Shown here in pieces: positions 1,966 through 4,975 of a DNA stretch of 44,504 nucleotides. Position 1 is the stretch's first letter. Each line of letters begins with the position of its first letter. The translations under genes and the position numbers were made by a program. Source of the DNA: Candidatus Ornithomonoglobus intestinigallinarum (GTDB taxonomy: Bacteria > Bacillota > Clostridia > UBA1381); contig DVLU01000051.1 in assembly GCA_018715365.1 (NCBI GenBank), positions 1 through 44,504 of the forward strand. The letters run 5' to 3'. The notes beneath the pieces were generated by a model. The model saw only the letters and a program-made list of their open reading frames with translations. It was not told the origin of the DNA and ran no database searches.

Positions 1966-2928
1966 TTACAGCTCGTTAAGCGTTGCGGCAAGCAGCTCGA
2001 TACAGTTATTTATATCGGAAACGCTTGCCGTTTCCGACGGTGAATGGATGTATCTCACAGGCACGGAAATACCTCCCGTTTTTATGCCCGCACGCGTTAC
2101 GTGTATCCTTCCCGCGTCCGTGCCGCCGTCAGACATTATCTCCGCCTGATACGGAATATTATTGCGCTTTGCCGTTTCCATCATGAAGTTTCTGAGCTGT
2201 GCGTCGCACAAAACGGAGCGGTCCATTATTTTTACCGCCGCGCCGCTTCCCAGCCTGACCTCCGCGACGGGAGCGTTTGGCGTATCTCCCGTATCGGTAA
2301 CGTCAACGGCTATCGCATAATCCGGCTCATACGAATACGCCGCCGGGCCGGCGCCGCGAAGCCCCACCTCTTCCTGAACGGTGAACGCAAGGCATACTTC
2401 GTTTTTGCCGTTCAGCTTCTCGAGCGCCTTAAGAAGGATATAGCAGCCGGCGCGGTTATCGAGCGCCTTTGACACAACAATGCCGTCCCGCTCCTCAAAG
2501 CTGCCGCAGAAAACGGCGGCGTCGCCCGTATTTACTTTTTTGCCGCACGTATCTATATACAGCTTATCAAGCGACGGCTTATCCTTGAATTCCTTTTCCT
2601 CACAGCCTATCACGCCGTACGCGCCGTTTGTGAACAGCACCCGTCTGCCGGGGAGATAACGCGTGTCAAGCCCGCCGAGCGCATCAAAACGCACAAAACC
2701 GTTTTCATCGGTATATTTTGCGATAACGCCTATTTCGTCCATATGCGCCGCCGCCATGATTTTCTTTTTGTTTTCCGCGCTTCCGCGCTTTATAAGCATA
2801 AGATTGCCGAGCGGGTCGGTTACAGCCTCATCGTACTTTCCCTCAGCCTCTTTTTTTATTATTTCGCGCACATCGTCCTCTGCGCCGGACGGCGCGCTTG
2901 CCTGTGTAAGTTTTTTTAACAGCTCCAT
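1966..2928 (-). CDS. M42 family metallo-aminopeptidase, first paralog (intact active site)
   Basis: A 320-residue cytosolic M42 (FrvX/CelM, TET-like) aminopeptidase, of normal length for a family that trims N-terminal residues from short peptides in large dodecamers. All expected residues are visible: His62 in AHMDEIG, bridging Asp157 in ALDNRAG, the Glu186-Glu187 pair in VQEEVGLRGA, Asp209 in AVDVTDTGD and His294 in RYIHSPSE. I prefer the ATG at 2928, which overlaps the upstream gene's stop as TAATG, with GGGTGG at suitable distance. An in-frame ATG at 2943 would add five residues but lacks a ribosome binding site. It is the third gene of a tandem M42 trio, and tight overlap implies translational coupling. 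Substrate preference cannot be read from sequence. Confidence 0.9.
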   Translation of the reverse strand: MELLKKLTQASAPSGAEDDVREIIKKEAEGKYDEAVTDPLGNLMLIKRGSAENKKKIMAAAHMDEIGVIAKYTDENGFVRFDALGGLDTRYLPGRRVLFTNGAYGVIGCEEKEFKDKPSLDKLYIDTCGKKVNTGDAAVFCGSFEERDGIVVSKALDNRAGCYILLKALEKLNGKNEVCLAFTVQEEVGLRGAGPAAYSYEPDYAIAVDVTDTGDTPNAPVAEVRLGSGAAVKIMDRSVLCDAQLRNFMMETAKRNNIPYQAEIMSDGGTDAGRIHVTRAGIKTGGISVPVRYIHSPSETASVSDINNCIELLAATLNEL

Positions 2929-3962
2929 TATTTTGCCACCCATTCGTCTATATTATCTATCAGCGCGCCGAGCAAAAGCTCCGCGGCCGTTACGTCCTTT
3001 AACGACATCATCCCCGCCGGCGTTTTTGAATATCTGCACGGGATTGAAATATTAACTCCCCTTGCGCCGCCGGCCCCGTAAAGGAATGCGCCGGAATCGG
3101 AAAAATCGTTTTTCAAAACAGCCCTTTGATACGGTATTTTAAGCTTTTTTGCAAGCTCCTCCGTTTTATCGAGCAGCTCTCTGTCGCAGCACGAATTTTT
3201 ATCGGTGTACGGTATAACAACTCCGCCGCCCATGCGCACCGTAACTTTTTCGGATTTATACATATCGTCCGCCGCCGCGGCGCCGACTGTTATAACAGCG
3301 TCCGGCTCTATGCTCCTTGACGCGGCGGACGCTCCGCGCATACCTGTTTCATGCTGCGCGGCAAAAACAAAATACAGCTCGTTTCCGGCAGTCTTGTCAA
3401 GCCTTTCGAGCAGCATGGCGCTTGCCGCGCTTCTTTCAAGCGCTTTGCCCCTTATTATATCGCCCGAAACGGTGCACTGTGTATCAAACGCCGCGTAATC
3501 GCCGAGCCTTATGCTTCTCTGAACGGCCTTTTTTTCGTTCATTCCGACATCGATAAAAAGCTTTTTTGCCGGGACTGTATTTTCGCGCTCCGATTTTGTC
3601 TGAAGATGTATCGCCTTCATGCCGATAACGCCTTTTACGGGGCTTCTGCCCTTTATGCAGACCCTTTTTGATATTGCCGTGCATATATCGGGCTCACCGA
3701 CTGTTTTAAATTTCAAATACCCGTCGTCCGTTATACCGCTTATTATAAAGCCGCATTCGTCAAGATATGCCGCAACCATTATTTTCCCGTCCGCGTCCGT
3801 TCCTTTTTTTACGGCGATAACGCTTCCCAGGCTGTCCGTTTTTACGCTTTCGAAGCTCTTGTTTTTAAGCCTTTCGAGAACAAACCGGCGCGCCTCGTTT
3901 TCACAGCCCGAAACGGCGTGCTTGCCGCTCAGGGCCGTTATGTTTTCTATAAGCGAAGCCAT
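2928..3962 (-). CDS. M42 family pseudo-peptidase, middle paralog (active site lost)
   Basis: A 344-residue member of the M42 fold, aligned end to end with its two neighbours but lacking the catalytic set. The metal His is Tyr66 (AYLDECG), the bridging Asp is Glu176 (ALERSAA), the first of the catalytic Glu pair is His204 (AQHETGMRGA), the next ligand Asp is Gly227 (VGAAAADD) and the last His is Lys313 (RYSKTP). The rest of the fold stays recognisable and the frame is open, so this is not simple decay. The ATG at 3962 has GGGGGAGG seven bases upstream; a TTG at 3968 is too close to that site. It overlaps the upstream M42 gene by 16 nt and the downstream one by 1 nt. It may be a non-catalytic subunit or regulator of its neighbours (inference). 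Confidence 0.85.
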   Translation of the reverse strand: MASLIENITALSGKHAVSGCENEARRFVLERLKNKSFESVKTDSLGSVIAVKKGTDADGKIMVAAYLDECGFIISGITDDGYLKFKTVGEPDICTAISKRVCIKGRSPVKGVIGMKAIHLQTKSERENTVPAKKLFIDVGMNEKKAVQRSIRLGDYAAFDTQCTVSGDIIRGKALERSAASAMLLERLDKTAGNELYFVFAAQHETGMRGASAASRSIEPDAVITVGAAAADDMYKSEKVTVRMGGGVVIPYTDKNSCCDRELLDKTEELAKKLKIPYQRAVLKNDFSDSGAFLYGAGGARGVNISIPCRYSKTPAGMMSLKDVTAAELLLGALIDNIDEWVAK

Positions 3963-4975
3963 TTGCAATCCTCCCCCGCATCAATTATAAATGACGATAT
4001 AAGCCTTGATACCGCCTTTACATCGGAAAGCGACAGCGTTTCCACAGAGGTATGCATATATTTGAGCGGTATTGATATAAGCGCCGTGGGGCAGCCGATT
4101 CCGGCTGTCTGTACAGTCCACGCATCGGTGCCGGTATCGCCGCCTTCAACCTCCGTTTCTGTCAGTATCCCGTGCTTTCTTGCCGTTTCGAATAATTTTG
4201 CCGTAAGCTTGGGATGAAGGTTCGGTCCGGTGCATATCACAGCGCCGCAGCCCGTTTTAAATGCGTTTTCCGAATTATCGGGCGTTACGGCGTGAGTAAC
4301 GTCAACGGCTATTGCCATATCGGGCTTCACGGAATATGCCGCCGTTTTTGCGCCGCGGCAGCCCACCTCCTCCTGTACGGCAAGCACCGCGTATACGTCG
4401 GCGTTAAGCTTTTTGCCTTTCAGCTCCTTCATCACATCGATCAAGGCGGCCGCCGACGCCCTGTCGTCAAGCGATTTCCCGCTCCACTGATGCTTGCCGA
4501 GCCTTCCGACTGACTGTGCTATCGTTACGCCGTCGCCGACGGAAACAAGCTTTCTCACTTCCTCCTCCGGCAGTCCCGTATCTATAGCCATATCGCTTAT
4601 TACCGGCGTTTTATCCTCTTCTCTCAAATGCGGCGGCTTTACACCTATAACGCCCGCAACGTCCTCTTTGCCGTGGATTACGACCTCAAGCAGCGGCAGT
4701 ATCCTGTTATCGACGCCGCCGATATTTGCAAAAGTCAGAAATCCGCCCTTTTGTATCGACGTTACCATAAGCCCTATTTCATCGCAGTGCGCTTCTATCA
4801 TGATTTTCGGTGCGTTTTCCTTTCCGCACTTTCTTTCCGCTATGACGCTTCCGAGAGCGTCTGTGCGCACGCTGTCGCAATACGGCTCAAGCATAAGGCA
4901 AAGCTCATCCGTTATGCGGTATTCCGAGCCGGATATACCGCGCATATTGCTTAATTTTTCTATCAGATTTTTCAT
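3947..4975 (-). CDS. M42 family metallo-aminopeptidase, third paralog (intact active site)
   Basis: A 342-residue M42 aminopeptidase and the first of the trio to be transcribed. Expected residues are present: His63 in EAHCDEIG, Asp170 in SLDDRAS, Glu202-Glu203 in VQEEVGCRGA, Asp225 in AVDVTHAVTPD, the GGDTGTDAW segment near 278-286, and His308 in KYMHTSVE. No signal peptide is present, so it acts in the cytoplasm. AGGG lies just upstream of the ATG. Its 3' end overlaps the pseudo-peptidase gene by 16 nt, so the two are probably coupled. It differs clearly from the first paralog, which points to an old duplication rather than a recent one. Substrate is unknown; members of the family act on N-terminal Glu/Asp, Leu or Lys residues. 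Confidence 0.9.
   Translation of the reverse strand: MKNLIEKLSNMRGISGSEYRITDELCLMLEPYCDSVRTDALGSVIAERKCGKENAPKIMIEAHCDEIGLMVTSIQKGGFLTFANIGGVDNRILPLLEVVIHGKEDVAGVIGVKPPHLREEDKTPVISDMAIDTGLPEEEVRKLVSVGDGVTIAQSVGRLGKHQWSGKSLDDRASAAALIDVMKELKGKKLNADVYAVLAVQEEVGCRGAKTAAYSVKPDMAIAVDVTHAVTPDNSENAFKTGCGAVICTGPNLHPKLTAKLFETARKHGILTETEVEGGDTGTDAWTVQTAGIGCPTALISIPLKYMHTSVETLSLSDVKAVSRLISSFIIDAGEDCKWLRL

Follow-up and report, generated by a model that had tools for sequence, protein, structure and literature searches.

We find that the middle gene of a three-gene M42 peptidase operon in Candidatus Ornithomonoglobus intestinigallinarum encodes an old, maintained pseudoenzyme (B) between two intact paralogues (A and C). 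In the sequences compared, the active site of B and a chamber loop of A have decayed reciprocally, a pattern suggestive of a split enzyme whose dead subunit would lend a loop to the living one. The operon lies in the window, by which we mean the whole 44,504-nucleotide stretch of contig DVLU01000051.1 (assembly GCA_018715365.1) analysed here, and consists of three M42 ORFs in tandem on the minus strand (Table 1). The start of B is an ATG inside the end of A that follows a strong ribosome-binding sequence, with an in-frame TTG at 3968. The ATG of C overlaps the stop codon of B as TAATG, and the ORF list also has an earlier in-frame ATG for C at 2943. The overlap of A and B together with the GGGGGAGG sequence makes translational coupling of the two genes probable. 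All three proteins match Pfam PF05343 above its cut-off of 23.2 bits (A 285, B 220.5 and C 271 bits). The assembly, which is 85% complete, holds no M42 genes beyond these three, and a scan of genome contigs with B matched only distant Thermoplasmata M42 proteins. The A-B-C trio recurs throughout the order, and many families of the class have it. Directly downstream of the trio on the minus strand (2-1939) is an open-ended frame of 646 residues with a start resembling that of a secreted protein, an HEFGH motif and apparent SLH repeats near its end; it probably encodes a cell-surface metallopeptidase.

Table 1. Features of the M42 operon in the window.
Feature	Position	Strand	Description
M42 subunit A	3947..4975	(-)	Active site intact, HDDEEDH; keeps loop motif KPPHL
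M42 subunit B, pseudoenzyme	2928..3962	(-)	YDEHEGK; five of six metal/catalytic residues gone
M42 subunit C	1966..2928	(-)	Active site intact, HDDEEDH; no loop His
B chamber loop, residues 109-128, VKGVIGMKAIHLQTKSEREN, His119	3579..3638	(-)	Equivalent of PhTET2 loop 120-138
B PDZ-like assembly domain, residues ~72-162	3477..3749	(-)	Equally conserved in dead and intact B
A end / B start overlap, 16 bases	3947..3962	(-)	GGGGGAGG a few bases upstream of B ATG

M42 enzymes carry five metal ligands and one catalytic Glu (PhTET2 E212) (PMC3511314). We aligned the site in the order H, second-shell D, D, catalytic E, E, D, H and found the full set in both A and C, as the initial annotation had claimed for the two overlapping neighbours. 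The five replacements that it listed in B (Tyr66, Glu176, His204, Gly227 and Lys313) are likewise seen in the alignment; its count of five of five, however, becomes five of six, since the M42 set has six members and B retains the metal ligand Glu205 (equivalent to PhTET2 E213). The second-shell Asp68 is also retained. With only Glu205 left of the six, B is a non-peptidase homologue and not an M42 enzyme, having the profile and fold of the family without its five metal ligands and catalytic Glu. Length, fold landmarks and open frame had been described as preserved. The M42 fold is predicted confidently (AlphaFold2 mean pLDDT 91.7, monomer only), the model matches TET aminopeptidases with a TM-score up to 0.93, and the frame is open across the clade.

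Using genomes that are mostly draft assemblies, we observed dead B with its frame kept in 45 genomes from eight genera of the window's family (g1, g4, g6, g10, g12, g14, g15, g16) and intact B in nine (g2, g3, g5, g7, g8, g9, g11, g13, g17). Dead B proteins form one clade in the B tree (UFBoot 100), and their genomes also group as a single clade in the tree of A and C (support 1.0; its two listed exceptions, G084 and G088, carry a partial but dead B), so the death of B in this family had a single origin. FastTree was used for trees other than the B and A trees. At the position of the catalytic Glu (204), none of the 45 dead B proteins has Glu (R20, H11, K7, S3, the rest Y, L, Q or C), and 38 have a basic residue; the Glu is present in all 86 B proteins compared outside the clade, which excludes chance. 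The other ligands are eroded to varying degrees, Glu205 and Asp68 are nearly invariant, and A and C are intact in 45/45 genomes. This recurrence of the same loss in orthologues with intact neighbours bears out the proposal that the middle protein is a maintained pseudoenzyme, and prozyme-type systems are likewise characterized by a dead paralogue that is retained next to an intact one.

B changes about 2-3 times faster in protein sequence than A and C. For close pairs (dS<1), which stem from only about three independent clusters, dN/dS is ~0.11-0.23 for B, far below 1; A and C give 0.02-0.12 and 0.03-0.21, respectively. Between the window and its nearest relative, synonymous sites are saturated (NG86 pN 0.22, pS 0.69) and no dN/dS is obtainable. 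B is less constrained than A and C but clearly under selection.

The constraint on dead B is unevenly distributed. Mean pairwise identity of the PDZ-like domain is 0.61 in dead B and 0.63-0.66 in intact B, whereas that of the catalytic domain is 0.41 in dead B and 0.54-0.60 in intact B; A and C of the dead-B genomes have no such contrast between domains. The PDZ-like domain of TET peptidases has a role in interfaces (PMC4220976). The best conserved among the segments compared in dead B is loop 109-128, with an identity of 0.74 vs 0.68 and 0.62 in intact B, and the former active-site segments have identities of 0.29-0.62 (metal 3 0.37; GGNDAG 0.29). In the alignments, this loop (GMKAIHLQ...ERE) corresponds to the KPPHL loop of A, and the latter to the PhTET2 loop with PPH, so that through the PPH of A the His119 of B falls on the conserved His of a TET chamber loop. 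The loop His is found in 43/43 dead B proteins of the clade and in every dead-B genome scored. No PPH-type loop motif was found in C by the segment comparison. In PhTET2 the chamber loop (120-138, with H123) may bring its His to the active site of the neighboring subunit, and the His lowers KM; the contact in trans is only suggested in that work (PMC8993905). The loop is disordered, and the distance from His to site ranges among structures from ~4 to over 20 angstrom.

The corresponding loop of A shows the opposite trend. It reads KPPHL in intact-B genomes and KPDYL, KPAYL, QPERF, MPAEL and similar in dead-B genomes, where it is ~3 residues shorter; its identity is 0.47 in the latter vs 0.62-0.66 elsewhere, while the catalytic motif of A rises to 0.86 from 0.69-0.72. 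Across 151 genomes, the loop His of A is gone in 46 of the 53 with a damaged B and in 3 of the 98 with an intact B (G050, G216 and G255). The 46 include G076, whose His (VMPHER) is shifted by one residue in the alignment and was scored by hand as a loss. On a tree built without the loop, B died separately in seven clades, six of them with loss of the A loop. Of the 53 B-dead genomes, 45 come from a single clade, and the replicates are the six further events. Five of the separate deaths fall in family f39, interleaved with B-intact relatives; the A-loop His is gone in each, and the dead B keeps the loop motif KPIH. The A loop is not lost in the replicate G171, which has a single B ligand changed and is one of the seven B-dead genomes that keep the A-loop His. 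Dependent evolution of the B site and the A loop is preferred over independent evolution (LR 36.7, p ~1e-8), and remains so with a single tip standing for the window's clade (LR 30.9, p 2e-7), under a simple two-state model with the root fixed intact and regain of B activity nearly forbidden. As a control, death of C was compared with the A loop and gave LR 2.0 and p 0.37.

Intermediates are known in both directions, and either half may go first. The window itself is only half decayed: B is dead and A still has PPH, in a loop 3 residues shorter than that of intact-B genomes, and in its sister G001 this loop reads PPW. Conversely, G255, sister to the B-dead G230, has lost the A loop and has an intact B. 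The several separate partings of loop and site give a natural test that the M42 loop works in trans.

A mechanism that would produce this pattern is an exchange of loops between two paired subunits. A and B, made by coupled translation, would associate into a heterodimer that becomes part of a TET-like shell. The chamber loop of either subunit in an M42 dimer may be able to reach the active site of the other, so that ancestrally the A loop would have served the B site and the B loop the A site. Loss of one half of either exchange would leave the other half useless and free to decay. If A and B do swap loops, the death of B makes the A loop useless and leaves the B loop needed by the living site of A, which matches the pattern observed: the window's clade would have given up the B site and the A loop and kept the A site and the B loop with His119. 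A would then cut, while the B loop reaches into its site and holds the substrate; dead B would be the structural, loop-donating half of an enzyme whose chemistry is done by A. C probably pairs separately. In genus g9 (L047, L060, L066, L072), the gene order is C, a gap, then A-B, and this adjacency of A and B with C apart fits an A-B pair. Since assembly of M42 dodecamers is mediated by metal (PMC7948507), the basic residue at the former catalytic Glu of most dead B proteins may, speculatively, replace the charge of the metal. We infer that A and B pair, that they sit in a shell, that the loop contact in trans occurs in these proteins and that B activates A, and we think it likely that dead B is the obligate partner of A in such a heterodimer, with its loop completing the A site in trans. 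Dead B had previously been proposed to be kept for another role, such as tuning assembly, gating or sensing; the reciprocal decay of A loop and B site leads us to replace the roles named by donation of a loop to A, a specific mechanism absent from those proposals. The 1:1:1 arrangement that they presuppose is an assumption.

Dead B could alternatively be purely structural, filling shell positions and tuning assembly, possibly without metal if a basic side chain stands in for its charge, and with a loop that is not catalytic. The conservation of the PDZ-like domain at the level of intact B while the catalytic domain drifts, the replacement of Glu by a basic residue in most of the clade and the metal-mediated assembly of M42 enzymes would all agree with this. 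It leaves unexplained why the B loop is better conserved in dead than in intact B, and why it is the A loop, and not the A site, that decays with the B site in six of seven events; we regard it as unlikely. A role as a peptide-binding sensor or regulator, with a ligand bound in the former active site, accords with the retained fold and pocket frame and with the near invariance of Glu205 and Asp68. The segments of the former site are nevertheless among the least conserved and there is little sign of a new conserved pocket, making this role highly improbable.

Two further explanations concern selection rather than function. Relaxed selection acting on the operon as a whole in certain lineages might have produced the coupling of A and B as a side effect, as the catalytic domain of B and the loop of A both change faster in the same genomes. 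We disfavour this and consider it quite improbable: the losses are reciprocal and confined to particular segments, conservation rises in the A site and the B loop, C is intact throughout the main clade, and death of C is not tied to loss of the A loop. We can give almost no credence to B being a gene that died recently and is being lost, even with its faster protein change. Recent decay should leave close relatives intact and dN/dS near 1, but the closest relatives are dead and intact orthologues occur only outside the clade. The spread over so many genomes and genera, the open frames, the low dN/dS and the single old origin refute it.

Losses were also observed at the C position. C is dead (e.g., ADGSNDG, GDEYQER) in families f10, f12 and f29 (L163, L165, L166, L167, L174, L175, L200-L204, L211-L214) with the B site kept, apart from the one ligand changed in G171; these deaths of C arose separately from those of B. 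Another independent loss at this position is found in the window's own family, where G022 (L059) has an intact B and a dead C (NDSKEDF). In family f39 (L223-L250), nearly all genomes have a C that lacks one or more active-site residues. In several of them B is dead too, which leaves only A intact. In the genomes compared earlier, save the weak case of G171, no operon had both B and C dead; these f39 genomes break that rule. Family f20 (L162, L164, L171) has A and B with no C adjoining.

Mixed M42 particles have been described. PhTET2 and PhTET3 of Pyrococcus horikoshii form heterododecamers in vitro, modelled from homodimers and not heterodimers (PMC4220976). They resemble the particle proposed here in combining M42 paralogues in TET shells; unlike it, both subunits are active, with no pseudoenzyme and no split of site and loop. 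The M42 paralogues YtoP and YsdC of B. subtilis also form a heteromer, detected by in-cell crosslinking (PMC10090944; model 9a5r), but are not described as a dead/active pair. PhTET2 has the PPH loop whose His may reach the active site of a neighbor, but as a homomer it has site and loop in every subunit (PMC8993905). Trypanosome prozymes (AdoMetDC, PMC5201418; deoxyhypusine synthase, PMC3663545) are dead paralogues kept as partners of active or impaired ones; these enzymes are unrelated to M42, and activation of AdoMetDC works through relief of autoinhibition rather than through a chamber loop supplied by the partner. MEROPS files some M42 sequences as non-peptidase homologues, although that group is defined around CelM, an active aminopeptidase (PMC3511314). 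Our literature search, which covered open-licence papers, found no description of an M42 pseudoenzyme or dead TET subunit, nor an earlier description of the split between A loop and B site.

M42 shells have so far been seen mainly as homomers or mixed assemblies of active enzymes, and there is still debate over what their flexible chamber loop does. That loop and active site have come to lie on separate proteins on several occasions predicts a hetero-dimeric building block. On balance we favor the extension of this to the class, in which A-B-C trios would form obligate heteromeric shells built on loop-swapping A:B heterodimers that have repeatedly turned into split enzymes, with two of the three subunits dead in some lineages. 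Many annotated M42 aminopeptidases of these bacteria are probably not peptidases.
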